A stretch of DNA of 64,000 nt, taken from positions 62,001-126,000 of the forward strand of contig NZ_JBBPCL010000003.1 of the NCBI RefSeq assembly GCF_038039215.1, in the 5' to 3' direction. The notes under the pieces were generated by a model. The model was not told the DNA's origin. It made no database searches and saw only the letters and a program-made list of their open reading frames with translations. A program made the translations under genes and the position numbers. Each line of letters opens with the position of its first letter. The stretch's first letter is position 1. The stretch comes from Pseudonocardia sp. T1-2H. Lineage in GTDB: Bacteria > Actinomycetota > Actinomycetes > Mycobacteriales > Pseudonocardiaceae. This document shows positions 6,499 through 43,676 of the stretch, piece by piece.

Positions 6499-6506
6499 CC
6501 CGGGGG

Positions 6507-7658
6507 TCAGCCGCGGCTGGCGTGGGCCGCGGCGAGGCTCATCGCCCGCAGGCCCTGGGCTTCCATCTCGTAGGCGGCGTCGGCGTTGGTGATCCGCTGT
6601 GCGGCGGAGGTGACCGCGTGCAGGACCCCACCGGCGGTGCGGTCCCCACCGGAGATGAAGTGGTTGAGGATCGTGTCCTGCTGCTCGCCGGTGAACCGCA
6701 GCGCCTTGCCCACGTGCTCCAGGGTTTCGGTCGGCGTGGTGACCTCGACCCCGGCGGCGGTGGTGATCTCGGCGAGTCGGCCCCTGACGAACTCGCGGTC
6801 CAGGAACGTCGCGACCGCGTCGCGGGCCTGCTTGATGACCAAATCCAGCGCGACCCGCTGGGTGTCGTCGGCCCAGCGGATCTGCCCCTCGGGCAGGCGC
6901 CCGCCCAGGTGGACCTCCTTGAGCACGTGCTCGGTCAGCGTCATCCCGTTGTTGCAGATCTCCACGGTGAGCTGCGGGGAGATCTTGAAGCTGCCGTTGC
7001 CGGTCTCGGAGTTGGAGATGACGAACCCGGCCCAGACCAGCGGGTTGTCCGCGCCCCGGGCGCCGGAGAACGGGCTGGTGTAGTGGGCCAGCAGGTCCGG
7101 GGCGTATTCGGCGATCTCGGTGGAGCGGACCTTGACATACATCCGGGTCTCGGTCAGGTCGGCGGAGGTGATGTCGACCTGTGCGCCGGCCTGGCGGATC
7201 CCGTCGAGCGCGGACATCAGCACGTCGAGGTTGTCGACGATGCGGAACTGGTCCGACAGCAGCGCCCGCATCACCCCGGTCTCGCCCTCCCCGGCGAGGC
7301 CGCGGACGAGGAAGCGGCGGGTCGGGTCGTGGGCGAGCCAGCCGTTGACGTTGGCGTCGTAGAGGCCGAGGTGGTTTTCCCGGACCCGGCGCAGGTACTG
7401 CGGCGGGATGTCGAGCTTCTTCGCGATCTGGTTGTCCGCGGCGGTGGTGGGCAGCAGCCGGGCATCGGTGCGGGTGACCCCGTCCAGGGTGAGCTCGTGG
7501 GCGGCGCCGGCCACGTGCAGCCGCCCATCGGCGGCGTGCAGGTTGCGGGCGGCGGTGACGACGTCGAGCTTCGCGGCGTGCTGCCCGCGCAGCACCTCCA
7601 CCAGGTCGGCGAGGGTGGCGTGGCGGGCGGTGAGCTGCGGGATCGTGGGCTGGGACAT
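6507..7658 (-). CDS. DUF932-family protein
   Basis: This 383-residue protein starts at the ATG at 7658, which has AGGAG seven bases upstream; the longer frame upstream is low-complexity and rejected. Residues 60-360 match DUF932: an IAKKLDIPPQYLRRVRENH segment, SDQFRIVDNLDVLMSALDGI, and SNSETGNGSFKISPQL followed by VEICNNGMT. The family is widespread on phages and conjugative plasmids, where a role near DNA metabolism or conjugation is suspected but not established. It supports reading 2285-13202 as a mobile-element island. Confidence 0.85.
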   Translation of the reverse strand: MSQPTIPQLTARHATLADLVEVLRGQHAAKLDVVTAARNLHAADGRLHVAGAAHELTLDGVTRTDARLLPTTAADNQIAKKLDIPPQYLRRVRENHLGLYDANVNGWLAHDPTRRFLVRGLAGEGETGVMRALLSDQFRIVDNLDVLMSALDGIRQAGAQVDITSADLTETRMYVKVRSTEIAEYAPDLLAHYTSPFSGARGADNPLVWAGFVISNSETGNGSFKISPQLTVEICNNGMTLTEHVLKEVHLGGRLPEGQIRWADDTQRVALDLVIKQARDAVATFLDREFVRGRLAEITTAAGVEVTTPTETLEHVGKALRFTGEQQDTILNHFISGGDRTAGGVLHAVTSAAQRITNADAAYEMEAQGLRAMSLAAAHASRG

Positions 7659-14546: not shown

Positions 14547-14726
14547 ACCGTCATGCGCAGCCGCCCCGACCGGTCCCGCCGACGATGAGCAGCGACCGCA
14601 CCGACCTGGAGCTCGCCGCCGGCAGCGAGCTCGACCCGGCCGCGCTCGACCCGGTCGGACATGGCTCGCGACCGCCGTCGCTCACTTATCCGGTCGTAGC
14701 CGTACTGGCGCTGACGGGGCCGGCGG

Positions 14727-15303
14727 TCAGTACATCGGTGGGCTCATCACCCAGATCGAGCGGGCCGGCACCTGCCCGGGGTTGCGGTAACTGTGCGGCA
14801 GACGGGGGTCCAGGAGCAGGGAGTCGCCCTCCTCGAGGAGGTACTCCTCCCCCTGCGATGACGACCAGCTGCCCGACGATGACGATGACGCACTCCTCGT
14901 CGGCCGGGTGGGTGTACGGCTCCTCGCCGGAGCCGTCACCGGGAGCGACCACGGAGTAGATGATCTGCAGCGTCTTGGCCCCGGGCGGGGTCAGCAAGTA
15001 GTCGTCCAGGGAGCCGGCCGGGTGGGCCAGTCGCTTCCGGTCGCCGGCCCGGACCACCATGCCCGGCATCTCCGACCCCACGAAAAGTGACGCGACACTC
15101 TCCCCGAGTGCCTCGGCCATGCGGCGCAGCGACGCCATCGACGGGTTGGCGACGCCGCGCTCGACCTGGGACACGAAGCTCTCGGAGACCCCGGCGGCGT
15201 CCGCCACCTCGCGCAAGGTGATGTTGTTCCGCCGGCGCAGCTCGCGCATGCGGCCCCCGAGGTCCCCGGGGGATCGACCGGCTTGCTCGTCACAGACCGC
15301 CAT
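14727..15303 (-). CDS. XRE-family regulator with cupin domain (frameshifted)
   Basis: From the ATG at 15303, residues 18-70 form a helix-turn-helix (MRELRRRNNITLREVADAAG, then VSESFVSQVERGVANPSMAS). A cupin domain follows (YSVVAPGDGSGEEPYTHPAD, then EECVIVIVGQLVVI). Near 14858 a one-base shift moves the frame to EEYLLEEGDSLLLDPRLPHS and the end WVMSPPMY. The joined protein, about 190 residues, has the usual length. Such regulators sense a small ligand in the cupin pocket and often control the neighbouring catabolic operon. It is divergent from the FAD monooxygenase, 150 bases apart, so it probably controls that cluster. The shift lies in a C/G run and may be a sequence error. Confidence 0.75.
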
Positions 15304-15455
15304 CTCTCCTAGGGAACGGGGCGACCCCGACTGTATCCGGGCGCCGACACGACCGGAGAAGTCCCACGCCTCTTGTGGCCACCGCCATGACTGAAGTAGC
15401 TTCCACAAAACTGAAGTGTGACTACAGAAGTCGCCCCCACGGTCGAGGGAGATAC

Positions 15456-16616
15456 GTGAGCAGCACGAAGCATGTCGAGATCGCCGGCGCGGGCCTGGCC
15501 GGGCTGACCATGGCAACCGCTCTGGCGCAGCGCGGCTGGTCGGTGCGGGTCCACGAACGGGGCGCCGAGCTCCGCGAGATCGGCGCGGGCATCTACCTCT
15601 GGGAGAACGCCCTCCGCGCACTGGAGGCGATCGGTGCCGCCGAGGCGGTCACGTCACGCGGCGAGCGGATCAACAGCCCCGAGCTGCGCGACCACAAGCA
15701 GCGGCTGCTGCAGCGCGAGTGGCTCCGCGACGGCCGGTTGTACACCGTCCTGCGCCGCGATCTGCACTCCGCACTGGTTCAGGCGGCCACCGATGCCGGC
15801 GTGGAGATCCGGACCAGCTCGGCGGTCATCGGTGCCGGTGCGGACGGGTCGCTGGACCTGGCCGACGGCAGCTCGGTGAAGGCCGACCTGGTGATCGGCG
15901 CCGACGGCGTCTACTCCCGGGTTCGCGACACGTTGGGCCTCACCCAGCAGATCACCAACCTCGGCGACGGTTGCGGGCGCCATCTCGTACCGCGCACCGA
16001 CGACGACCCGGTCAACGTGGCGTGGGAGGAATGGAACGGCGGACGCCGGGTGGGCGTCATCCCGTCGTCGCCCGAGTGGACCTACCTCTTCCTCTGCTGC
16101 CCGGAGGACGACACCGAAGGGACGGCGCAGCAGCCGTTCAACCGGCAGACCTGGATCGACTCCTTTCCCAGCTTCCGCTCCCAGCTCGAACGAGTGCCGG
16201 ACATGCCCGAGGGACGCTGGGCGGCGTTCTCCGACGTGGTCACCCGCCACTGGTACCGGGGGCGGGCCGCAGTCATCGGCGACGCGGCGCACGCCATGTC
16301 ACCCAATCTCGGGCAGGCGGCCTGCACCGCGATGGCCAACAGCATCGCGTTGGCCCAGTCCCTCGACGTGCATGACATCGACACGGCGCTGCAGGTGTGG
16401 CAGCGCAGCGAGAAGCCGGTGGTCGACCGGGTACAGCGCTACTCTCGGATGTACGGGAAGATCGGCACCCGCTGGCCCGACCAGGCGCTGGGCGCCCGGT
16501 CCGCGCTCATCTGGTCACTGGCCAAGGCCAAGCCCTTCCAGCGGCGCATCCAGTTCGCCGCCGGCTACTTCCCCACGCTTGACGCGGCCTCCGGGCCGGT
16601 CGGCGCGGGGCGCTGA
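15456..16616 (+). CDS. FAD-dependent aromatic monooxygenase, MHPCO-like
   Basis: This 386-residue protein starts at the GTG at 15456 (GAGGGAG upstream). It has a Rossmann GAGLAG motif at residues 11-16, IGADGVYSRVRD (DG motif) near 150, and VIGDAAHAMSPNLGQAA (GD motif) near 270: a class A flavoprotein hydroxylase. The N-terminal text GWSVRVHERGAELREIGAGI then YLWENALRALEAIG closely resembles, from memory, 2-methyl-3-hydroxypyridine-5-carboxylate oxygenase (MHPCO), which hydroxylates and opens a pyridine ring in vitamin B6 breakdown. 6-Hydroxynicotinate and salicylate hydroxylases are alternatives. The next gene starts seven bases downstream, so they are an operon. Confidence 0.8.
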   Translation: MSSTKHVEIAGAGLAGLTMATALAQRGWSVRVHERGAELREIGAGIYLWENALRALEAIGAAEAVTSRGERINSPELRDHKQRLLQREWLRDGRLYTVLRRDLHSALVQAATDAGVEIRTSSAVIGAGADGSLDLADGSSVKADLVIGADGVYSRVRDTLGLTQQITNLGDGCGRHLVPRTDDDPVNVAWEEWNGGRRVGVIPSSPEWTYLFLCCPEDDTEGTAQQPFNRQTWIDSFPSFRSQLERVPDMPEGRWAAFSDVVTRHWYRGRAAVIGDAAHAMSPNLGQAACTAMANSIALAQSLDVHDIDTALQVWQRSEKPVVDRVQRYSRMYGKIGTRWPDQALGARSALIWSLAKAKPFQRRIQFAAGYFPTLDAASGPVGAGR

Positions 16617-16623
16617 CGCCGTC

Positions 16624-18297
16624 GTGAGCACCATCGGAACCGAGCTGGCAGCAGACTTCGCGCTCACCGGCCGCGTCGTCACCGTCACCGGGACGGCGGA
16701 CGCGCAGGCGGTCGTCGTCCGTGGCGGACGGATCGACTCGGTCGGAGGCCGGGAGCTGGCCGAGCAGGCACGGGCCGCGGGCCTTCCGGTCCACGACGTC
16801 GGCGAGCGGCTGGTGCTGCCCGGCTTCGTCGACCCGCACATGCACCTGCAACACATCAGTGTGGGGCGGGGACGCGGGGTCGACTGCCGGTTCCCCGGCT
16901 GCGCGACCATCCCCGACGTCCTGGACGCGCTGCACGCCGGGCTGGCCGACATCTCCGGAGACGAGTGGCTGGTCGGCTACGCCAACCTCTTCTTCGACCA
17001 GAAGATCGCCGAACGGCGCTACCTGACCCGCGCCGAACTGGACCGGGTCAGCGACCGGGTGCCGATCGTGCTGCACATGGGCGGCCACGCCTCGGTGCTC
17101 AACACCCCGGCCCTGCGGCTGGCCGGGGTCGAGCGCTTCATGGCCGGTGCCGCCGGCGGCTGGGGCAGCCCAGTCGTCGAGGTGGACGAGGCCGGGCAGC
17201 CCACCGGGCTGGTCGCCGAGATCGACCCCATGCTCCCCATCCCCACCCCGGACGCCGGCACGGTGGAGGGGTACGTCGCCGACACCTTCCGCGACCTGTT
17301 CACCGCACACGGGGTCACCGCGTTCGGGGAGATGGTCGAGTCCACCGACGGCGCCGCGCTCCTGGAGCGGCTGACCGGCAGCGGCCGGCTGCCGGCACGC
17401 GCCGGGCTCTACCTCATGTCGCCGGCGGCGCTGCCGCTGACCGAGGCCACGAGCTGGGTCAGTGGTCACCGGCCTGCCGATCCCGACCGGCTGCGGGCCG
17501 TGGGCGTCAAAGTGTTCGCCGACGGCGGTTACTCCTCCCGCAACGCGGCCAGCCGGACGCCCTACGTGCTCGACCACGCCCCGCACCCCGGTTACCACGG
17601 CCGGTTGAACCTGCCCTACGCCTCGATCCGCGAGGCGATCGCCGCCACCCGGGCGGCGGGCGTACACCTGGCCATCCACACCAACGGCACTGCCGCGCAG
17701 GACGAGGCGCTGGCCGCGGTGCTCGGCTCGGGCGACCCCGCCGACCATCCGGCGGTGCGGATCGAGCACCTCGGCAACGTGCTCGACTCCCCTCGGGACC
17801 TGGCCACCTGGCGGCTGGCGGGGGTGCGCCCGGTCCTGCAGCCGGCGTTCCTGCACAACTTCGTGGGCGACTACGTGCCGATGCTCCTCGGCGACGCCGG
17901 GATGACCGGACGACTCCCGTTGCGCACCATCCTCGATGCCGGCGTGTTGCCGGCAGCCAGCTCGGACGTCTGCCTCGGGGCGGAGACCGAACAGTCGAAC
18001 CCGCTGTTCGGCATCTGGTGCCTGATGGCCCGGCGCAGCTACTGGGGCCGGCACGTCGAACCGGACGAGAAGATCAGCTTCAGCGAGGCGCTGCGCCTGT
18101 TCACGCTCGAAGGCGCGAAAGCACTGGGCATGGACGACCGCGTGGGCTCCATCGAGCCCGGGAAGTACGCCGACCTCGTCGTCCTGGACCGCGATCCGCG
18201 CACCGATATCGACGAGTTGCGGCGCACCCAGGTCGACTCGGTCTACCTGCAGGGCCGCGAGGTCCACCACCGGCCCGGCGCAGCACCCCCGCGCTGA
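16624..18297 (+). CDS. Amidohydrolase, YtcJ-like
   Basis: This 557-residue protein is a TIM-barrel amidohydrolase of the YtcJ (amidohydrolase 3) type. It has FVDPHMHLQH near residue 75 (HxH metal site), a KVFADGGYSSRNAA segment, HTNGTAAQDEAL, RIEHLGN, and SSDVCLGAE near the C-terminus, then the closing EPGKYADLVVLDRDP strand. It would cleave a C-N bond of an amide or enamide. In this operon the natural guess is the acyclic product made by the ring-opening monooxygenase. It replaces the alpha/beta-hydrolase used at that step in known B6 degraders, which makes the substrate uncertain. Confidence 0.85.
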   Translation: MSTIGTELAADFALTGRVVTVTGTADAQAVVVRGGRIDSVGGRELAEQARAAGLPVHDVGERLVLPGFVDPHMHLQHISVGRGRGVDCRFPGCATIPDVLDALHAGLADISGDEWLVGYANLFFDQKIAERRYLTRAELDRVSDRVPIVLHMGGHASVLNTPALRLAGVERFMAGAAGGWGSPVVEVDEAGQPTGLVAEIDPMLPIPTPDAGTVEGYVADTFRDLFTAHGVTAFGEMVESTDGAALLERLTGSGRLPARAGLYLMSPAALPLTEATSWVSGHRPADPDRLRAVGVKVFADGGYSSRNAASRTPYVLDHAPHPGYHGRLNLPYASIREAIAATRAAGVHLAIHTNGTAAQDEALAAVLGSGDPADHPAVRIEHLGNVLDSPRDLATWRLAGVRPVLQPAFLHNFVGDYVPMLLGDAGMTGRLPLRTILDAGVLPAASSDVCLGAETEQSNPLFGIWCLMARRSYWGRHVEPDEKISFSEALRLFTLEGAKALGMDDRVGSIEPGKYADLVVLDRDPRTDIDELRRTQVDSVYLQGREVHHRPGAAPPR

Positions 18298-18391
18298 GGC
18301 CGCCGGGGGCGATCAGCCCTGCTGCACGGACACCGCACTGCGCATGACGCGGCGATCGCGTCGCAGGACCCCATCACAAAGGAGTGGCACC

Positions 18392-19816
18392 ATGGGCAAT
18401 GACGCACGTCCGCAGGCCGGCATCCGAGGCCTGGAGACCCGCTCGATCGACTACGTCCCCCTCGCCGAGAGACACGGCGTCGTTTGGCACCAGGGCCCGT
18501 TCTGGTTCACCGGCGGGTTCGTCCTGCCGTCCATGCTGATCGGCTTCATCGGCCCGAGCATGGGGCTGGGACTGATCTGGTCCATCATCGGCTCGGTCAC
18601 CGGGATGGCCTTCGGCACCCTGTTCATGGCGCTGCACGCCAACCAGGGGCCGCGCCTGGGCCTGCCACAGATGATCCAGTCGCGGGCGCAGTTCGGGGCC
18701 CGGGGCGCCATGTTCCCGATGGCCGTCGCGATCTTCATCTACGTCGGCTACAACGTCTTCTACTTCATCCTGTCCACCGAGGCGATCGACATCGTCGTCC
18801 CCGGTGGGAAGATCTGGTACGTCCTCTTCGGGCTCCTCGCCGTAGGGATCGCGATGGTCGGCCACGACCTGCTGCACGTGTTCCAGCGATGGTCGAGCTT
18901 CGTCATCCTGGTCGTCTTCGCGGTCCTGACCGTGGTCGTGATCGTGAAGTACCCGGCCGCGGGCGCCCCGCCGCGGGCCTCCGGCTGGGCGTTCACGCCC
19001 TTCCTCGTGCAGTTCGCCGCCGCCGGCGGATACCAGATCAGCTACGCCATCTACGTGTCGGACTACAGCCGCTACCTGCCCGAGGACGCCCCGGCCAAGA
19101 AGCTGATCGGCTGGACGTTCATCGGCGGGCTGGCCGGTGCCGGCTGGCTGGCGTGCCTGGGTTCCCTGTTCGCCACCTACGTCGCCGCGTCCGACCCGAT
19201 CGTCGCCATGCACGAGGTGGGTAACCTGGTCTTCCCCGGTTTCGGGATCATCGCCGTGCTGGCCAGCGTGCCGCCGATGATCGGGACCTCCGGGGTCAAC
19301 GCCTACGGGGCGATGCTCACCGGGGCGACCATCGCCGACGGGATCCGGCATGTGCGACCCGGCGTGCGCACCCGGGTGATCGGCCTGCTGATCGTGGGTG
19401 TCGCCACCATCGTGGTCAGCCTGGCGATCCCCGACAACTACCTCAACGCCTTCAACACCTTCCTCGGCGTGATGGTCTACCTGTTGGTCCCGTGGACCGC
19501 CGTCAACCTGGTCGACTTCTACCTGGTCAGGCGGGGGCACTACAGCGTCACCGACATCGTCGACCCGCGCGGCGCCTACGGGCAGTGGTCGGCCCGCGGC
19601 CTGACCGCCTACTTCGCCGGCTTCCTGGCGATGGTGCCGTTCTTCTCGCTGAGCTTCTACAACGGGCCGGTGACCCAGGCGCTGGGCGGCGCGGACTTCT
19701 CCTTCGTCGTCGGGCTGCTGGTCTCCGGCGTCCTCTACTGGCTGATCAGCCGGCAGCGGGCCGGCCAGAGCTTCCCGGCGGAGATCGCCGCCGACCCGAC
19801 CCGGGTCACCACCTGA
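18392..19816 (+). CDS. NCS1-family permease (nucleobase/B6-type transporter)
   Basis: This 474-residue protein starts at the ATG at 18392 with an AAAGGAG site. About twelve hydrophobic segments are seen. The family marks are the N-terminal GPFWFTGGFVLPSMLIGFIG, GLPQMIQSRAQFGARGA and VSDYSRYLP motifs, as in cytosine/purine/thiamine/allantoin/hydantoin permeases. The yeast B6 transporter Tpn1 belongs to the same family, which fits the pyridine-catabolism idea. It would import the pathway substrate with H+ or Na+ across the cell membrane. It lies 94 bases after the amidohydrolase on the same strand. Confidence 0.9.
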   Translation: MGNDARPQAGIRGLETRSIDYVPLAERHGVVWHQGPFWFTGGFVLPSMLIGFIGPSMGLGLIWSIIGSVTGMAFGTLFMALHANQGPRLGLPQMIQSRAQFGARGAMFPMAVAIFIYVGYNVFYFILSTEAIDIVVPGGKIWYVLFGLLAVGIAMVGHDLLHVFQRWSSFVILVVFAVLTVVVIVKYPAAGAPPRASGWAFTPFLVQFAAAGGYQISYAIYVSDYSRYLPEDAPAKKLIGWTFIGGLAGAGWLACLGSLFATYVAASDPIVAMHEVGNLVFPGFGIIAVLASVPPMIGTSGVNAYGAMLTGATIADGIRHVRPGVRTRVIGLLIVGVATIVVSLAIPDNYLNAFNTFLGVMVYLLVPWTAVNLVDFYLVRRGHYSVTDIVDPRGAYGQWSARGLTAYFAGFLAMVPFFSLSFYNGPVTQALGGADFSFVVGLLVSGVLYWLISRQRAGQSFPAEIAADPTRVTT

Positions 19817-19932
19817 GCGAGCCCGTTCTCCGGCGCCGGGCGGTTCGCGGCGCCTTCCACCACAGGCGTCGGGTGGGCCGGTGCAGCCCCGCGCCGCCGG
19901 CCGACCCGACCCGCACAAGCGACAGGACAACC

Positions 19933-21408
19933 ATGAGCACACTGCACGCCGGCACCCACCCGAGCGAGGTCTTGGACTCGACCCCCACCCAACTCCTCAT
20001 CGGCGGCGTGTGGCGGAACTCCAGCAGCGGCCGCACGCTCGCCGTGGAGGACCCGGCGACGGGTCGGACCCTGGTGCACGTCGCCGACGCCACCGTCGAG
20101 GACGGGGACGCAGCGCTCGCCGCGGCCACGGCGGCGCAACCAGGCTGGGCCGCGACCCCGCCACGCGAGCGGGGCGAGATCCTGCGCCGGGCCTTCGAGA
20201 CCATCCTCTCCCGGATCGAGGACCTCGCCCTGCTGATGACGCTGGAGATGGGCAAGTCGCTGGCCGAGTCGCGGGCCGAGATCCGGTACGCCGCCGAGTT
20301 CTTCCGCTGGTTCTCCGAGGAGGCGGTCCGGATCGGTGGGCGGTTCGCCACCTCTCCGGACGGCGCGACGCGGCTGCTGACGATCAAGCGGCCGGTCGGC
20401 CCGTGCCTGTTCATCACGCCCTGGAACTTCCCCATGGCGATGGGCACCCGCAAGATCGGCCCCGCGGTGGCGGCCGGCTGCACGATGGTGGTCAAGCCGG
20501 CCGGCCAGACGCCGCTGAGCATGCTGGCGCTGGCCCAGATCCTGATCGACGCCGGCCTGCCCGACGGCGTCCTCAACGTGGTGACCACCTCCACCACCGG
20601 TGCGGTCATGGAACCGCTCATCCGCGATCCCCGACTGCGCAAGCTGTCCTTCACCGGTTCCACCCCCGTGGGGCAGCGCCTGATCGAGCAGTCCGCCCAG
20701 CAACTGCTGCGGACCTCCATGGAGCTCGGCGGGAACGCGCCGTTCCTGGTGTTCGACGACGCCGACCTCGACGCCGCCGTGGACGGCGCCGTCGCGGCCA
20801 AGATGCGCAACGTCGGCCAGGCCTGCACCGCGGCCAACCGCTTCCACGTGCAGGCCGGGATCGCGGAGGAGTTCACCCGCCGGCTCACCGAGCGGCTCGC
20901 CGCGCTGACCGTCGGGCCGGGCAGCGAGGACGGCGTGGAGGTCGGCCCGCTGGTCGACCAGGCCGGCCGCACCAAGGTTGCCAAACTGGTCGCGGATGCC
21001 GTCGCCCGAGGAGCCACGGTGACCACCGGCGGCCGGGCCATCGACGGCCCCGGGCACTTCTACGCCCCCACGGTGCTGGCCGACGTGCCGGCCGGCGCGC
21101 GCATCCTGCGGGAGGAGGTGTTCGGTCCGGTGGCCGCGATCGCCACGTTTAGCACCGAGGAGGAGGGCATCGCGGCCGCGAACGACACCGAGTACGGCCT
21201 GGCCGCCTACGTGTTCACCCGGGACGTCGGCTGCGCGCTGCGGGTCTGCGAGGCGCTCGAGGCCGGGATGATCGGCCTCAACCAGGGCGTCATCTCCAAC
21301 CCCGCGGCCCCCTTCGGCGGCCTGAAGGCCAGCGGATTCGGGCGTGAGGGCGGCAGCGAGGGCATCGAGGAGTACCTCGAGACCCAGTACGTCGGCATCG
21401 CCCCCTGA
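19933..21408 (+). CDS. gabD: Aldehyde dehydrogenase, probable succinate-semialdehyde dehydrogenase
   Basis: This 491-residue protein is a full-length NAD(P)-dependent aldehyde dehydrogenase. It has ITPWNFPMAMGTRKIGPAVA near residue 162, KPAGQTPLS, the catalytic Glu264 in MELGGNAPF, catalytic Cys298 in VGQACTAANRF, and EEVFGPVAAI. The GQACTAANRF context and the C-terminal PFGGLKASGFGREGGSEGIE are as in GabD-type succinate-semialdehyde dehydrogenases. It would turn succinate semialdehyde into succinate, feeding the TCA cycle, and is the last step of the inferred cluster. Related semialdehydes are possible substrates. Confidence 0.85.
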   Translation: MSTLHAGTHPSEVLDSTPTQLLIGGVWRNSSSGRTLAVEDPATGRTLVHVADATVEDGDAALAAATAAQPGWAATPPRERGEILRRAFETILSRIEDLALLMTLEMGKSLAESRAEIRYAAEFFRWFSEEAVRIGGRFATSPDGATRLLTIKRPVGPCLFITPWNFPMAMGTRKIGPAVAAGCTMVVKPAGQTPLSMLALAQILIDAGLPDGVLNVVTTSTTGAVMEPLIRDPRLRKLSFTGSTPVGQRLIEQSAQQLLRTSMELGGNAPFLVFDDADLDAAVDGAVAAKMRNVGQACTAANRFHVQAGIAEEFTRRLTERLAALTVGPGSEDGVEVGPLVDQAGRTKVAKLVADAVARGATVTTGGRAIDGPGHFYAPTVLADVPAGARILREEVFGPVAAIATFSTEEEGIAAANDTEYGLAAYVFTRDVGCALRVCEALEAGMIGLNQGVISNPAAPFGGLKASGFGREGGSEGIEEYLETQYVGIAP

Positions 21409-24384: not shown

Positions 24385-25286
24385 TCACAGAGCGGGCACC
24401 CGCAGGTGGTTCACCGCGGCCCGGGCCGCGGCGGCGATGGCGGCGTCGGCCCGCGGGACGGCGGTGTCGCTGCGCGCAGCGTGCGTGAAGACCGCGACGG
24501 CGACCGGGTGCTCGCCCGGGTAGGTCACCACACCGATCTCGTTGCGGACCGCGCCGACGGTCCCGGTCTTGCCCGCGACGGAGGCCGTGCCCGGGAATCC
24601 GGCGCGTAGCCGATGCGTCCAGACCTGCGCGCCGAGCACCCGCCGGGCGAACGCGGTCCCGGCGGCGGAGGCGAGCTCGCCGCGCCACAGCAGCGTGAGC
24701 AGCCGGGTGCTGTCGGCGGCGGTGGTCGACGAGCCGTAGGCCGGGTCGAGCTCGCGGACGGCGACCGGGGCGTCGTTGTCGGCGAGCACCGCGAAGGCGG
24801 CCGCGACGTCGTCGGCGCCGGTGTCGGCGAGCAGCCCGGCGAACACGTCCGCGGTGCCGCCGCGGACCCGCGTCCCGGGCAGGTCGAGCTCGGCCGGCAG
24901 CGCGGCCACCCGATCCCGGCCGAGCCGCGCGTGCACGACGTCCGCGGCGCCGTTGTCCGACACCGTGATCATCGAGGTGGCGAGGTCGCGCCAGGACATC
25001 GTGACCGGGTCGGCGAGCGCGGAGATCCCGGTCGGGCCGGGGGTGCGGCGGCCGGGAGCGACGGTGACCTGTTCGCGGGGGTCGAGCCGCCCGCGTCGAC
25101 GGCCCTGCAGTACGCGACCAGCACCAGGACCTTGTAGACCGACGCCATCACCACGGGCACGTCCGCGCCGACGGCGACCTCCCGCCCGGCCCAGCGCGGG
25201 CCGTCGCCGCTGACCGGGCGGGCATGCAGCCAGCCGCGCACGCCGGCGTCCCGGAAGGCGGCCCGGACCTCCTGCTCCGCGGTCAC
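24385..25286 (-). pseudogene. Class A beta-lactamase-related serine hydrolase (frameshifted)
   Basis: A GTG at 25286 overlaps the LysR stop (GTGA). The first frame reads VRGWLHARPVSGDGPRW and PVVMASVYKVLVLVAY, which includes the SxxK active site SVYK. Near 25090 the frame shifts by one base and continues RLDPREQVTV, SMITVSDNGAADVV (SDN loop) and SVAGKTGTVGAVRNEIGVVT (KTG box) to the stop. All class A landmarks are present, so an intact gene would encode a serine beta-lactamase-like enzyme of about 300 residues without an obvious signal peptide. The shift may be real or an error. Confidence 0.7.
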
Positions 25287-26152
25287 GTCGCCTCCCGGAG
25301 CACGGTGGCGAGCTCGTCGACGACGGCGGCCGGGGTGTCGTCGCGGTGCACGATCCGGACCCGGAACGGGACCGGGGCGCCGGCCGCGGCCCGGCGTGCC
25401 ACGCCGTCCGTTCCCAGATCGGGATCGGGGGTGAGAGCGAACCCGGCGCCGGTCGCGACCAGCGCCAGGACCGCGGCCGGGCCGTCCGCCTCGGCCGCGC
25501 GCACCGGGCGGCCGCGGGTCTCCAGGGTGTCCAGCAGCAGGTCGTGCGCAGCCGGGGCATGGCTGCGCGGCGCCGTCGCCAGATCCAGGTCCCGCAGCGC
25601 GCGCAACGCCACCGGCCCGCCGTCGCCGGCCGCCGGGTGCTCCGCAGGCAGCAGCACCTCCGTGGGCAGCGCGACGACGGGCCCGGCCCGGGCCGACTCC
25701 AGCACCGCCGGATGGGCGACGACGGCGACGTCCAGCGTCCCCGTCGACACGGCGTCGATCAGGGCGACCGTGGAGCCGCCGGTGAGCGCGGCGCGCCGGC
25801 CCGCGACCCGTCCCGCGCGGGCGGCCAGCCGTGCGGCGACGCGAGGCCCGAGATCCGCGACGACGCCGACCCGCAGCACCTGCGCGGCCTCCGCCTGCCG
25901 CCGGGCGGCCCGGCCGAGCGCCTCGGCGTCCTCCAGCAGGGCCCGGGCGCGGGGAAGCAGGTCCCGGCCCGCGGAGGTCAGCGCGACGCCGCCGGGGCCG
26001 CGGTCGAACAACCGCACGCCGAGCCGGTCCTCCAACCGCCGGACGCCCTGCGACAGCGGCGGCTGCGCCATCTCCAGCCGGCGGGCGGCGTTGCCGAAGT
26101 GCCGCTCCTCGGCGACGGTGACGAAGAACGTCAGGTGCCGCAGCAGGTCCAT
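25283..26152 (-). CDS. LysR-family regulator, divergent from the beta-lactamase gene
   Basis: This 289-residue protein has a typical N-terminal winged helix: LLRHLTFFVTVAEERHFGNA, then ARRLEMAQPPLSQGVRRLED. An effector-binding domain follows (LRVGVVADLGPRVAARLA onward). It lies back to back with a class A beta-lactamase gene and overlaps a second beta-lactamase-like gene by four bases, an arrangement like AmpR/bla pairs. By analogy it would control one or both genes in response to cell-wall or beta-lactam stress (inference). Confidence 0.85.
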   Translation of the reverse strand: MDLLRHLTFFVTVAEERHFGNAARRLEMAQPPLSQGVRRLEDRLGVRLFDRGPGGVALTSAGRDLLPRARALLEDAEALGRAARRQAEAAQVLRVGVVADLGPRVAARLAARAGRVAGRRAALTGGSTVALIDAVSTGTLDVAVVAHPAVLESARAGPVVALPTEVLLPAEHPAAGDGGPVALRALRDLDLATAPRSHAPAAHDLLLDTLETRGRPVRAAEADGPAAVLALVATGAGFALTPDPDLGTDGVARRAAAGAPVPFRVRIVHRDDTPAAVVDELATVLREAT

Positions 26153-35117: not shown

Positions 35118-35157
35118 GCTGCCCCTCCAGGAAGGCGATGACGTGCCCCCGGTAGGA

Positions 35158-38100
35158 GTTGCGATCCTCGGCCACCGCGAACAGTGGCCGCTGCCGGTTC
35201 GGGCAGGACATGGCCCAGTTGTCCCTGGGTTGCGATCCTCGGCCACCGCGAACAGTGGCCGCTGCGCGTCCGCGCCGCCGCCCGGCGTGGGCAGCATCAG
35301 GTTGCGATCCTCGGCCACCGCGAACAGTGGCCGCTGCCGATGTGGTTCGCGGCCTTCTCGATGACCTTGGTGTTGCGATCCTCGGCCACCGCGAACAGTG
35401 GCCGCTGCCGGTTCGGGCAGGACATGGCCCAGTTGTCCCTGGGTTGCGATCCTCGGCCACCGCGAACAGTGGCCGCTGCGCGTCCGCGCCGCCGCCCGGC
35501 GTGGGCAGCATCAGGTTGCGATCCTCGGCCACCGCGAACAGTGGCCGCTGCCGATGTGGTTCGCGGCCTTCTCGATGACCTTGGTGTTGCGATCCTCGGC
35601 CACCGCGAACAGTGGCCGCTGCCGCCGCTGGGCCTGATGCTCGACGAGGCCGCGCAGCTGTTGCGATCCTCGGCCACCGCGAACAGTGGCCGCTGCCGTC
35701 GAGATCTGCGAGTCCATCACCACGGCCGTGTTGCGATCCTCGGCCACCGCGAACAGTGGCCGCTGCTGGCCGCCGAGTGGACCACGGCGACCAGCACGAT
35801 GTTGCGATCCTCGGCCACCGCGAACAGTGGCCGCTGCGCGGTCTGGTGACGACCTCTTCCTGCTGACCCGGGTTGCGATCCTCGGCCACCGCGAACAGTG
35901 GCCGCTGCAGGTGCAGGCCGACGACGTGGCCGCCTCGGTGAAGTTGCGATCCTCGGCCACCGCGAACAGTGGCCGCTGCCCTGCGTCGAGGTGGTGGATT
36001 GACGCCGGGTCGGGTTGCGATCCTCGGCCACCGCGAACAGTGGCCGCTGCCCGAGCTGCACCGCCCGGTTCCACCCGTCGGTGATGTTGCGATCCTCGGC
36101 CACCGCGAACAGTGGCCGCTGCCCCGGGGTGGGGAGGGGGGCGTGGTGTCGTGCGTGTTGCGATCCTCGGCCACCGCGAACAGTGGCCGCTGCGGTCGCC
36201 GGCTACCTCGAGGAGACCCGCGCGAAAGTTGCGATCCTCGGCCACCGCGAACAGTGGCCGCTGCGAGCACCTGGTCAAGGTCGCTCAGGCCAAGGCCGAG
36301 GTTGCGATCCTCGGCCACCGCGAACAGTGGCCGCTGCTCCCGGTCTCGTCGGCCTTGCCGCCGAGCAGCCCGTTGCGATCCTCGGCCACCGCGAACAGTG
36401 GCCGCTGCCTGTGTTCGCGACCGTGCTGTGGGACCTGGACCGGAAGTTGCGATCCTCGGCCACCGCGAACAGTGGCCGCTGCGGCGCGAGCTTGTCACGA
36501 CCGGCGCGGGCGGAAAGGTTGCGATCCTCGGCCACCGCGAACAGTGGCCGCTGCCCGGTCGAGCAGGGCGTCGCGCAGCTCCTCGAAGTTGCGATCCTCG
36601 GCCACCGCGAACAGTGGCCGCTGCCCCAGATCCGGGCCGTCCCGGACAGCGTCATCGTGTTGCGATCCTCGGCCACCGCGAACAGTGGCCGCTGCCCGCT
36701 GCCCTTGTTCGACCCGGATGCGCCTGCGGTCGTTGCGATCCTCGGCCACCGCGAACAGTGGCCGCTGCGGCTCGACGCCGACGCCACGTGGGGCACGCCG
36801 GAGTTGCGATCCTCGGCCACCGCGAACAGTGGCCGCTGCAGTTCGAGCCGAACGGCGACGTCCTCCTCTCGAGGTTGCGATCCTCGGCCACCGCGAACAG
36901 TGGCCGCTGCGGCGCTGCTTGTTGCCCTCGTCGCCGAGGGAGTCGTTGCGATCCTCGGCCACCGCGAACAGTGGCCGCTGCGGGTCCCGGCGGGCGGGGC
37001 CACCGGGCAGCTGTTGTTGCGATCCTCGGCCACCGCGAACAGTGGCCGCTGCGGCTACGCGTCCCGTGGTGCCGCGTGCACCGACGTGTTGCGATCCTCG
37101 GCCACCGCGAACAGTGGCCGCTGCCGGTGCCGTTCGACCAACCAGGAGACCCCCGCATGTTGCGATCCTCGGCCACCGCGAACAGTGGCCGCTGCACGGG
37201 CGCCGCCCGCACGTCCGCCGCCTGGAGCGGTTGCGATCCTCGGCCACCGCGAACAGTGGCCGCTGCGTTCGTGGACGGCCCACTCGGTGGCGACTTCCAG
37301 GTTGCGATCCTCGGCCACCGCGAACAGTGGCCGCTGCTCCCGGCCTTGACCACGCCGGCCGACCAGCGCCGGTTGCGATCCTCGGCCACCGCGAACAGTG
37401 GCCGCTGCTGCAGGTGGAGGACGCCCGGTCCAGCGCGACGATGTCGTTGCGATCCTCGGCCACCGCGAACAGTGGCCGCTGCACTAGGTGACCACAGCAC
37501 TCGCCCCCCCAGCCGGTGTTGCGATCCTCGGCCACCGCGAACAGTGGCCGCTGCAGGGCCACGAGGGTGTCCCCGTCCACGACCCGCTGTTGCGATCCTC
37601 GGCCACCGCGAACAGTGGCCGCTGCCGCCGAGGACGAGGGTCCCGTGGCCGAGGTAGAGGTTGCGATCCTCGGCCACCGCGAACAGTGGCCGCTGCGTGT
37701 TGATCGCCGTGGGAATGTCGTCGACCTGGGAGTTGCGATCCTCGGCCACCGCGAACAGTGGCCGCTGCGCCTGCTCGGGGCCGGCGCCGATGCCGTGCAC
37801 GATGTTGCGATCCTCGGCCACCGCGAACAGTGGCCGCTGCTCGCCGCCAGCGCAGCCTCAGCGGCGTCGACCATGGCGTTGCGATCCTCGGCCACCGCGA
37901 ACAGTGGCCGCTGCTGCCGACCCACCGCGGCGCCCACGCCTCCTCCCGCTCGTTGCGATCCTCGGCCACCGCGAACAGTGGCCGCTGCCTGACCTCGGAC
38001 ATGGCTAACCCGATCAGCTCGGTGTTGCGATCCTCGGCCACCGCGAACAGTGGCCGCTGCGTGTCGACACCCGCGTCGCGTGCCGGCACTGCGGGTTGCG

Positions 38101-40339: not shown

Positions 40340-41233
40340 TCAGCTGACCAGCTTGGTCAGCTGTACCCCGGCGGGCAGCCCGTCGTCGTCGACCGAGACG
40401 ATGTAGTCGGAGAAGCTGCGGGGCACCGACTCGATCGCGTCCTCGATGCGCTGGATGCGGACCCGCTCGGTGAGCCGGTGGGCTGGGGCGGCGCCGAAGG
40501 CATCGGGGTGGGTGAAGACGTAGAGCCCGCGGGGGGTGAGCCGGCCGCGGGTTGCGGATCGGTCGTGGTCGAACATCATCTCCAGGCTGCGGTGCAGCAG
40601 GTCGAGGTCGCGGCTGTCCACCCCGGTCTGGGCGCCGCGGTTGGCGGAGTAGTAGATCTCGGCGCGGTACAGGCCGTAGGGCACGGTCCACTTGCCGCCC
40701 ATCTCGGTGGACTCGCCCTTGTCGATGTCTTCCTGGCGGGTCTGGGTGACGCGGGTGATGGCGTGGTCCATCGGGAAGACCGGGTCGATGCTGCGGCCCA
40801 TGGTCACCTGTACCGGGCCCCGGACCTGGCCCAGGGCGGGGGTTTTACCGACCGAGAGCACCGCGCCGAACAGCCGGATGTCGACGTAGCGGTCACACAG
40901 CCAGGCCCGTGCGGCGCCGGCCTGTTCGGCGGTCACCTTGCCCTTGCCGCCGACCTCCAGACCGGTCGCTTGGTAGGAGGCCTCCAGGCGGGGGTTCAGG
41001 GCGTGTCCGGCCTGGACGAACACCTCGTAGCGGGGGTCGTCGCCGGCGGCGAGGGCGATGGTGTCGCGGATCTTGCGCTTGAGCGACACGTCGGTGACCA
41101 GGCCCTGGCCGGACTCGTCGTCCATGCGCGGGCGGTTCCCAGCGTCCGGGTCGCCGTTGGGGTTACCGTCCACAACGTCGAAGAGGAACACCATGTCGTG
41201 GCGGACCGTGGGGTCCAGGTGCGGGGCGGTCAT
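40340..41233 (-). CDS. cas7c: Cas7 (Csd2), type I-C Cascade backbone
   Basis: This 297-residue protein begins with the family signature FLFDVVDGNPNGDPDAGNRP (residues 17-36), then DVSLKRKIRD. It has RLFGAVLSVGKTPALGQVRG and PYGLYRAEIYYSANRG further on. It binds the crRNA spacer along the Cascade complex. It lies between cas8c (one-base overlap) and cas4 (two-base gap). Confidence 0.96.
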   Translation of the reverse strand: MTAPHLDPTVRHDMVFLFDVVDGNPNGDPDAGNRPRMDDESGQGLVTDVSLKRKIRDTIALAAGDDPRYEVFVQAGHALNPRLEASYQATGLEVGGKGKVTAEQAGAARAWLCDRYVDIRLFGAVLSVGKTPALGQVRGPVQVTMGRSIDPVFPMDHAITRVTQTRQEDIDKGESTEMGGKWTVPYGLYRAEIYYSANRGAQTGVDSRDLDLLHRSLEMMFDHDRSATRGRLTPRGLYVFTHPDAFGAAPAHRLTERVRIQRIEDAIESVPRSFSDYIVSVDDDGLPAGVQLTKLVS

Positions 41234-43011
41234 CAGGCGGTCTCCTCGACGGCGTCGACGTCATCGGTGGGGGTGGCGTGGGCTGCGCGGATGGAGGCGA
41301 AGCGGTGCGCGCGTTGGTGGTGGTAGCCGAGCAGGAACAGCGACTGCTCGTGCAGCGTGGTCCGCGCCGGCACATCCCCAGTGGGGTCGAGCAGACCGAA
41401 CAGCTCGTCCAAGGCCTTCTGGTGGCGGACGGCGGCGGGTGGCTTCGTGCGGCGGAGCTTGCGTAGCCAGGCGATGGCGTCGCGCTGCCCGGTGACCAGC
41501 GCGGCGCGGGGGTTGCTGATCGCCCCTGCGAAGAACCGGTCGCCGTAGGTGGCGTTGCGCTGCCCGCTGGCGTCGTACTGGATCTGTTCGAGGACGGCGA
41601 AGGCGCGCCCGGCGACGTAGGCCGGGGTGGTGTTGGACGGGTCGAGTCCGGGCATCGGTTTCTCCGTGGTCAGGGGGTGGCGCGTCAGGATCAGCCGGAG
41701 CAGCGCGGCGCGCGCGTCATCAAGGCGGCCGTCGGTGCGCACCCGGTGCACGAGATGCGCGAGCAGCGAGGGCGGTAGCGGGGTGCGGCGCAGCGCCGCA
41801 CGCACCAGGTCGCGATGCACCCCGTCGGGCCGGTCGGCCCCCTTGGCTCCGAACTCGGCGTAACGGCCCCCGTCGCGAGCCCGCACCAACCGCCCGCAGA
41901 CCAGGGCGAATCGGCCCAGGCCGTGGTGGGTGGGTCCATCGGGGCGGGTGGAGACGATCTCGTGGTCGGCGAACCAGGCCGCAATGTTGGTCTTGACCTG
42001 GTCCAGCGGCATCTCCAGCCAGTCCCGCACCATGATGCGGGCGACGTTGCCGCCGACGGTCAGGGAGCAGAACTTCGTCGGGTCGGGTCTCTGCCCGCCC
42101 GCGGGGCGGCCGCGGTGCACCGCCTCCAGCAGCGCGGTGACCTCCGCTGCGGAGGGCTGCTGCAGGATCGTCATCGCGTCGAAGCTGGCCTCCTCGGTGG
42201 TCCACCACGCCAGGCGGCTGTCCTGCCCGCCGTAGGTCGAGGAATGCTCGGAATCCAGGGCGCGGACCAGTCCGGCGGTGACGGCTTCCCCGCAGCTCAT
42301 GCAGACCGGGCTGGCGGCCAACTGGGTGGTCAGGTCGTAGCCGAAGACCCGCTCGTTCACACTGACCAGGGCGGTGTCGTTCGTGGCGCCCGGCACCAGC
42401 CGCGAGGGAACCCGGCCGGGCAGGGTGTCTAGCAGCGGCCCCACCTGGCCGCAGATCAGGCACAGCCCGTGTCCTGCTAGGGAGCCTTTGCGGCGGGCCA
42501 CCTCCGTGGCCCAGAACGCGGGCACCGACGCGGCCCGGTAAGCGGGCACCCCACCGACGGCGATGAGCACGCCGCTTTTGGCGGTGCAGTCCTCGGGGCG
42601 CTGCAGCGCGGTGGCGGCGCCGCTGCGGTAGAACGCCGACACCGCGCGGGCGACCGGGTCGGCGCCGCCCTCGTCGCTGTCCGCCCAGCGGTGGGTCAGG
42701 TCGACGAACGCGGCGTGGCACTGCGCGACGCGTTCGGGCTTGCTGTCCTCGTCGGCCCAGCCGAGCACGTATTGCGCGTCGTCCGCGGCGAGGTTGGCGG
42801 CGACTCCCGCGGTGCGCACCATGGTCGGTACCGCGTGCACGACCCCGCGGGCGCGTCCCTTCGCGTCGACCTCGACGAGGGGCTGCAGGGTGTCGGTCTC
42901 CGGCTGCCCGTCCAGCCGGAGGTCAAGCCGCCAGCCGAACTGCCGTTCGCGGTGGAACGGGGCCGCGGCTTCGTCGCGGCCGGCGTACTCGACGAGCCGG
43001 TGTAGCAGCAT
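41233..43011 (-). CDS. cas8c: Cas8c (Csd1), type I-C large subunit
   Basis: This 592-residue protein starts at the ATG at 43011 (MLLHRLVEYAG). It has the Csd1 layout: an N-terminal domain with CLICGQVGPLLDTLPG then SPVCMSCGEAVTAGLVRALD (paired CxxC knuckles), and a C-terminal helical part that in type I-C is also made separately as Cas11c from an internal start. It recognises the PAM and starts R-loop formation. An internal start may exist near codon 480, but I cannot fix it. It overlaps cas5c and cas7 by one base each. Confidence 0.95.
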   Translation of the reverse strand: MLLHRLVEYAGRDEAAAPFHRERQFGWRLDLRLDGQPETDTLQPLVEVDAKGRARGVVHAVPTMVRTAGVAANLAADDAQYVLGWADEDSKPERVAQCHAAFVDLTHRWADSDEGGADPVARAVSAFYRSGAATALQRPEDCTAKSGVLIAVGGVPAYRAASVPAFWATEVARRKGSLAGHGLCLICGQVGPLLDTLPGRVPSRLVPGATNDTALVSVNERVFGYDLTTQLAASPVCMSCGEAVTAGLVRALDSEHSSTYGGQDSRLAWWTTEEASFDAMTILQQPSAAEVTALLEAVHRGRPAGGQRPDPTKFCSLTVGGNVARIMVRDWLEMPLDQVKTNIAAWFADHEIVSTRPDGPTHHGLGRFALVCGRLVRARDGGRYAEFGAKGADRPDGVHRDLVRAALRRTPLPPSLLAHLVHRVRTDGRLDDARAALLRLILTRHPLTTEKPMPGLDPSNTTPAYVAGRAFAVLEQIQYDASGQRNATYGDRFFAGAISNPRAALVTGQRDAIAWLRKLRRTKPPAAVRHQKALDELFGLLDPTGDVPARTTLHEQSLFLLGYHHQRAHRFASIRAAHATPTDDVDAVEETA

Positions 43012-43676
43012 CAGGCCGCCCCGGAGCCGGGGATGCCCTGGGCGGGGACGTGCAGCACGCCGTGGTCGAGGCGGGCGGTGAACCAGGTGAACGACGCCGG
43101 GGTGGTGGAGTGGTCCACGGTGTGCAGCATGATCCCCAGGTCCTCGGTCACCTCGATCGCGGGCCGCTCGTCGGGCTCCCCGAAGTAGGCGGTGAACTCC
43201 CGCGTCCCCAGGTAGGGCTGGCTGAAGCAGCTGCCCCGCCCGACGCGGCGGCGGAACTGGTCTCGGTAGGCCGCCGCCGGTTTGGTCGCCCGCTCCCGCA
43301 GGTCCACGTGTGCGTGGATGCGGTAGGCGACATCGCGCAGGCACACCGCGTTGCGCTGCACCCGGTGGGCCACGGTGTCGATCCGGCGGCGCCCCGAGGC
43401 GGCTTCGGTCAGCGAGGCGAGGTCGGTGGTCTCGTTGCGGCGCTGGGTGAACTGGCGGATCGGGTTCAGCACCTCGATCGCCACCACCCGCCAGGTCATC
43501 TCCGGCTTCCAGAAGATCGACTCCAGCACGCCGACCGCGGCCGACGGGGTCATCACCGGGTAGGAGACCCGCTCCACTTTCAACTCGGGACGGGTGAACA
43601 GCGCGCCGTCGCCCCACACCTGCACCACCACCGGGGGCGCGCCATCCGCGGACCGCGGCAGGTTCACCGTCACCAC
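43011..43676 (-). CDS. cas5c: Cas5c (Cas5d), type I-C crRNA-processing subunit
   Basis: This 221-residue protein starts at a GTG at 43676, overlapping the cas3 end by seven bases. It reads VQVWGDGALFTRPELKVERV, then SYPVMTPSAAVGVLESIFWK, the conserved RAMP start. A GSCFSQPYLGTREFTAYFGE segment near residue 150 is typical of Cas5d. In type I-C this protein, not Cas6, cuts the repeat hairpin; accordingly no cas6 gene is present. The 11-base handle predicted from the repeat agrees. Confidence 0.95.
   Translation of the reverse strand: MVTVNLPRSADGAPPVVVQVWGDGALFTRPELKVERVSYPVMTPSAAVGVLESIFWKPEMTWRVVAIEVLNPIRQFTQRRNETTDLASLTEAASGRRRIDTVAHRVQRNAVCLRDVAYRIHAHVDLRERATKPAAAYRDQFRRRVGRGSCFSQPYLGTREFTAYFGEPDERPAIEVTEDLGIMLHTVDHSTTPASFTWFTARLDHGVLHVPAQGIPGSGAA

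Follow-up and report, generated by a model that had tools for sequence, protein, structure and literature searches.

A candidate operon for opening a hydroxypyridine-type ring in Pseudonocardia sp. T1-2H

Genes and candidate operator at the locus

We analysed a 64,000-nucleotide stretch of the Pseudonocardia sp. T1-2H genome (contig NZ_JBBPCL010000003.1, positions 62,001 to 126,000; hereafter the window), which belongs to contig C3 in a three-contig assembly of 7.0 Mb. Five genes at positions 14727 to 21408 of the window encode a regulator, a flavin adenine dinucleotide (FAD) monooxygenase (FMO), a YtcJ-type amidohydrolase (AH), a permease and a dehydrogenase similar to succinate-semialdehyde dehydrogenases (SSADHs). 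Judged from their sequences, they probably form an operon that imports a hydroxylated pyridine ring, opens the ring and converts it to succinate. The features of the locus are as follows.

14727..15306, minus strand: XRE-type regulator with an intact helix-turn-helix (HTH) half and a cupin half that falls in a different frame; open frame ends at 14686
15390..15417, plus strand: candidate operator between the regulator and the FMO, made up of a pair of ACTGAAGT repeats spaced by 20 bp
15456..16616, plus strand: FMO, a predicted ring-opening oxygenase; class A FAD monooxygenase within the MHPCO/AqdB superclade; GTG start (query start taken at 15465)
16624..18297, plus strand: AH, YtcJ-type Amidohydro_3 metal amidohydrolase, predicted N-acyl enamide hydrolase; GTG start
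18392..19816, plus strand: NCS1-family permease, predicted ring-substrate importer; Pfam Transp_cyt_pur
19933..21408, plus strand: SSADH-like aldehyde dehydrogenase; Pfam Aldedh, similarity to SSADHs

Open frames and Pfam matches confirm all five genes of the initial annotation. The FMO matches FAD_binding_3 (92.6 bits), AH matches Amidohydro_3 (206 bits) and Amidohydro_1 (81 bits), and the permease, dehydrogenase and regulator match Transp_cyt_pur (131 bits), Aldedh (543 bits) and HTH_3 (50.8 bits), respectively. As annotated, the FMO, AH, NCS1 and SSADH-like genes are co-directional and the regulator is divergent. Successive gaps measure 7, 94 and 116 bases, the first being exactly the 7 bases annotated between the FMO stop and AH. 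The AH metal site is intact, with the HxH, Lys, two His and Asp of YtcJ-type Amidohydro_3 hydrolases at positions assigned by alignment and recall. The dehydrogenase is nearest to SSADHs: it matches E. coli GabD with 518 bits and is 62% (over 483 residues) and 37% identical to two SSADHs of plasmid p2MP from Arthrobacter sp. 68b. An Rfam scan of the whole window at gathering scores gave no match.

The regulator had been described as an XRE-cupin protein. The divergent HTH protein is present, but in the window its cupin half does not continue in frame, so that the gene is readable here as an HTH protein only. The cupin-including gene is open from end to end in the near-identical relative L009 (L numbers denote the loci compared), and the cupin half is also open in relatives L011, L046 and L052. 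The frame break at 14686-15306 is either a real change or a sequencing error. The operator pair ends 38 bases before the FMO start, and neither the window nor the rest of the genome has a second match to the double ACTGAAGT pattern, even with up to 2 mismatches allowed. A ACTGAAGT repeat lies upstream of the FMO in 10 of 37 loci, compared to 0.25 expected from its frequency in loci; these ten include two closely related pairs (the window and L009, L012 and L013), and the repeat is absent in 27 of the 37. L052, from a different family, retains both repeats at the same spacing. The XRE-cupin regulator may act on these repeats. In L052 the FMO itself is a broken remnant (L052:7037-7356), with the regulator, operator repeats, NCS1, AH and dehydrogenase still there.

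Recurrence of the core pair and exchange of its partners

An AH alignment scan of genome contigs yielded 49 AH loci, some of them closely related to one another. In 34 of them (including the decayed fragment of L052) an FMO of at least 50% identity was found no more than 5 kb from AH, which indicates that the gene arrangement goes beyond chance. A luciferase-like monooxygenase (LLM) was found within this distance in 11 loci, and neither partner in 4 (L023, L037, L039 and L041). All neighbour counts are lower bounds, since flank lengths vary and several loci stop at contig ends.

Importers in the 34 FMO loci are of the ABC type in 24 and of the window-like NCS1 type in 7, with neither in 3; an XRE regulator is present in 18, and the FMO lies on the opposite strand in 16. 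Two aldehyde dehydrogenase types occur among the loci. Counted from two query types only, one dehydrogenase is found in 18 FMO loci, none in 16 and two in 0. The LLM loci all carry a different NCS1-type permease (11/11), with one dehydrogenase in 7 and two in 4. In L009-L011 the FMO stands directly next to AH on the same strand, and a substrate-binding protein stands between them in many ABC loci. The FMO-AH-NCS1-SSADH order recurs in L009 (93 dehydrogenase residues before the contig end) and L010 (87 FMO residues), and L011 has FMO-AH-NCS1 with no dehydrogenase match. Both close relatives with the four-gene order are thus truncated where their contigs end, and most relatives have an ABC importer.

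The system is rare. With a cut-off of 1e-90, AH has matches in 3 of the 62 genomes searched in the genus and in 6 of the 397 searched in the order; with 1e-60, the FMO has matches in 3 of 396 genomes of the phylum. Each count includes the window's genome, and the other two FMO matches of the phylum search (L073, L074) group with MHPCO and AqdB in the FMO tree. One genome of the same genus has a 99% identical AH, at the contig position that it occupies in L009, a Pseudonocardia metagenome-assembled genome. The FMO-AH core pair is recurrent in many actinobacteria. Plasmids of R. pyridinivorans, R. rhodochrous and A. crystallopoietes bear FMO-type loci, and S. fredii NGR234 has one as well (FMO 54%, AH 41%). 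The 24 FMO-AH-ABC loci (R. pyridinivorans and A. crystallopoietes plasmids, Arthrobacter, Microbacterium, Planosporangium and others) have FMOs of 54-69% and AHs of 44-64% identity, and many share the XRE-cupin regulator with the window, but they carry an ABC importer instead of its NCS1. We know of no characterisation of these loci. Planosporangium flavigriseum (L027) carries two FMO-AH pairs in less than 20 kb of DNA, besides more AH loci in the same genome. A divergent FMO (39%) and amidohydrolase (29%) pair stands beside an LLM-type cluster at L047:15075-18190, so the pairing may extend past this family.

On an AH tree of 52 rows with known partner (39 FMO, 13 LLM), cut from 57 by leaving out rows without known partner and the p2MP row, FMO/LLM switches number 4, or 3 without L052 and 2 without L050 too. 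The AH tree needs two to four swaps of FMO and LLM partners. Tentatively, and at slightly less than even chances, the AH family may be the hub of a modular, mainly actinobacterial and so far undescribed system for opening N-heteroaromatic rings. One conserved enamide hydrolase would have repeatedly exchanged two unrelated classes of ring-opening flavin oxygenase (single-component class A FMO and two-component luciferase-like) and two unrelated importers (NCS1 and sugar-type ABC), with a different pyridine as the target of each combination. If true, recurrent oxygenase swapping on one hydrolase would help to explain how such pathways, some of them plasmid-borne, evolve and spread.

The predicted route and its alternatives

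Pyridine rings are common in cofactors, alkaloids, drugs and pesticides, and few complete degradation routes are known; the FMO-AH family supplies specific enzymes with which a short conversion of a hydroxypyridine to succinate could be tested. By sequence and by fold, the top relative of the FMO among proteins of solved structure is MHPCO, the ring-opening enzyme of vitamin B6 pathway I (Mesorhizobium loti). Both have the class A FAD monooxygenase fold and Arg181, Arg211 and Tyr223 (MHPCO numbering), which, with Tyr82, we take to be MHPCO pocket residues; these three are kept in 51 of 51 FMO family rows (L047 was dropped from residue counts). The FMO is 37.2% identical to MHPCO, 38.4% to the pAL1 oxoquinaldine 3-monooxygenase and 36.6% to AqdB1 of Rhodococcus erythropolis BG43. 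Grouping with salicylate hydroxylases, named beforehand as an outcome contrary to the annotation, was not seen by bit scores and fold Z. Salicylate, NicC and dihydroxypyridine hydroxylase types were ruled out by the same measures; the FMO tree was built without NicC or the pAO1 dihydroxypyridine hydroxylase, both families being compared by bit score and fold Z only. A second superclade FMO, 44% identical, is encoded on contig C1 of the same genome (L002, G000 C1:2034365-2035471), after an amino-acid-type permease (type assigned by eye), and lies in the tree on the MHPCO/AqdB side.

The reading that we favour, at about even chances, is a small operon for breaking down a ring of the 3-hydroxypyridine type, with uptake, FMO opening, AH hydrolysis and a dehydrogenase step to succinate; its reactions and its substrate are all predictions. 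The NCS1 permease would import the ring compound. The FMO would add O2 beside the ring hydroxyl and cleave C2-C3, giving an N-formyl (or N-acetyl) enamide bearing a carboxylate, namely 4-formamidobut-3-enoate if the ring is otherwise unsubstituted. AH would cleave the C-N bond to release succinate semialdehyde, ammonia and formate or acetate (or the amide), and the dehydrogenase would turn succinate semialdehyde into succinate. Amide hydrolysis of the opened ring to succinate semialdehyde, as in B6 pathway I, is thus predicted for the window's operon also. Ring opening by the FMO is likely, and the FMO-or-LLM context beside AH favours it.

The p2MP plasmid provides a second point of comparison. 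It reportedly encodes a pyridine (pyr) pathway, said to run from pyridine through N-(4-oxobut-1-enyl)formamide, 4-formamidobut-3-enoate and succinate semialdehyde to succinate. As in the window, one region of p2MP combines a flavin monooxygenase, an Amidohydro_3-like amidohydrolase and SSADHs; its monooxygenase, however, is an LLM encoded together with a flavin reductase and the amidohydrolase, and neither LLM nor flavin reductase is among the window's five genes (a search of the window's own genome with the LLM of L046 was empty at 1e-30, which is uninformative alone). The LLM of the AH loci is 39% identical to that of p2MP. By chemical analogy, plain 3-hydroxypyridine cleaved in the manner of MHPCO would yield this same 4-formamidobut-3-enoate in a single step. 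Such a shared intermediate would explain both why a single hydrolase family could serve two unrelated oxygenases and why FMO loci have only one dehydrogenase. On p2MP (L062), the SSADH-amidohydrolase region is bordered on both sides by a copy of one LLM, at 6503-7654 and 15827-16978, the two copies having a single protein accession.

Several observations weigh against the favoured reading. The oxoquinaldine monooxygenase is as near to the FMO as MHPCO is. The tree groups MHPCO with the quinolone 3-hydroxylases (AqdB1 and the oxoquinaldine monooxygenase) with supports of 100/92 (9 rows) and 99/88 (11 rows), leaving the window's FMO clade outside, and joining MHPCO with this clade is disfavoured (p-AU 0.0325); the MHPCO, Novosphingobium, L047 and outgroup rows call for long-branch caution, the MHPCO row is a 336-residue fragment, and the window duplicate WIN_FMO_15375 was dropped. 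The annotated MHPCO-like monooxygenase thus has MHPCO as its nearest solved relative by sequence and fold but belongs to a separate clade, and sequence alone is therefore no proof of ring opening. More generally, hydroxylating and ring-opening flavin enzymes are not distinguishable from the nearest structure alone. Tyr82 of MHPCO is not kept in the FMO family, and Arg181 and Tyr223 occur in outgroups too, so these two are not diagnostic. The 16 FMO loci that lack an aldehyde dehydrogenase match do so in the DNA examined, and some end at contig ends. The p2MP amidohydrolase is of another subfamily, 26% identical to AH, and its top match in the window's genome is another protein (29%), which rules out AH as its ortholog; the p2MP SSADH nearest that amidohydrolase is the one of 37% identity, and the one of 62% is found some 10.7 kb away. 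The LLM query that matches p2MP also matches LLMs on plasmids of Rhodococcus, Aminobacter and Pseudonocardia at 35-38% identity, so that the p2MP link is one of family and not of orthology. Finally, the number of FMO/LLM switches falls to 1 once L052, L050, S. fredii and pYKAM101 are all removed. The proposed series of transporter, ring opening, C-N cleavage and SSADH is partly supported, by gene set and context, but not by membership of the MHPCO clade.

The same three steps might instead act on a different N-heteroaromatic (a substituted pyridine, a pyrazine or an alkaloid fragment) and yield a different C4-C5 semialdehyde. Position 82 varies in the family (the 51 rows divide into 29 with Pro, 17 with Trp and 5 with another residue), as do importers and dehydrogenase types from locus to locus, which is consistent with such a substrate, but the SSADH affinity of the window's dehydrogenase speaks against it and we consider it unlikely.

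A further possibility, somewhat less probable again, is that the FMO only hydroxylates (e.g. 4-pyridone at C3) and that another enzyme opens the ring, possibly AH as a KpiC-like dioxygenase. MHPCO is intermingled with hydroxylases in the tree, and AqdB1 and the pAL1 enzyme belong to the same superclade as the window's FMO; these two, however, adjoin a 2,4-dioxygenase and have Phe at the Arg211 position. The available text on the kpi 4-hydroxypyridine cluster of Arthrobacter sp. IN13 describes a FAD_binding_3 hydroxylase (KpiA), an amidohydrolase-family dioxygenase (KpiC, Pfam01979), an NCS1-type permease (KpiP), an alpha/beta hydrolase (KpiB), a FAH protein (KpiD) and regulators, and does not name an SSADH (PMC7356986). 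By that description, an FAD monooxygenase, an amidohydrolase-family protein and an NCS1-type permease stand together as in the window, and AH does match KpiC's family, Amidohydro_1. AH is mainly Amidohydro_3, however, and has all the hydrolase metal ligands; the same AH family is also paired with LLM, the five genes hold no KpiB- or KpiD-type protein, and the SSADH-like gene is mismatched to a formylpyruvate end.

True vitamin B6 catabolism is the least probable of the alternatives. The initial annotation had a metal amidohydrolase replacing the alpha/beta hydrolase of the described pathway; the hydrolase of the operon is Amidohydro_3 and not of the E-2AMS hydrolase type, which has an alpha/beta fold, and its reaction is predicted. 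E-2AMS hydrolase ends the B6 route with succinic semialdehyde, ammonia, acetate and CO2, and Arthrobacter Cr-7 has a second B6 pathway (PMC3538738). The FMO, by its similarity to MHPCO, might act on 2-methyl-3-hydroxypyridine-5-carboxylic acid or on 5-pyridoxic acid (pathway II), with succinate semialdehyde or 2-(hydroxymethyl)-4-oxobutanoate as dehydrogenase substrate, but MHPCO is not sister to the FMO family and the earlier B6 steps are not among the five genes.

No description that joins an MHPCO-like FMO to a YtcJ amidohydrolase and to an SSADH was recognised in the open-licence literature, a weak negative. Amidohydrolase-family proteins have precedents in pyridine routes (kpi and, by recall, pyr), and the operon therefore varies a known theme; it would be new as a variant because of its separate FMO clade, different amidohydrolase subfamily and SSADH.

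Other features of the window

The window also carries a type I-C-like CRISPR-Cas system, with Cas7, Csd1 and Cas3-like genes at 40340-45889 (minus strand) and an array from 35150. The array has 44 repeat copies at a spacing of about 71 bases, and among the 30 copies listed, a block of three successive spacers is duplicated (35150-35355 and 35364-35569). A beta-lactamase-family protein (PF13354) is encoded at 24385-25560 (minus strand), and the open frame listed for it partly coincides with the gene of a LysR-type regulator (25283-26152).

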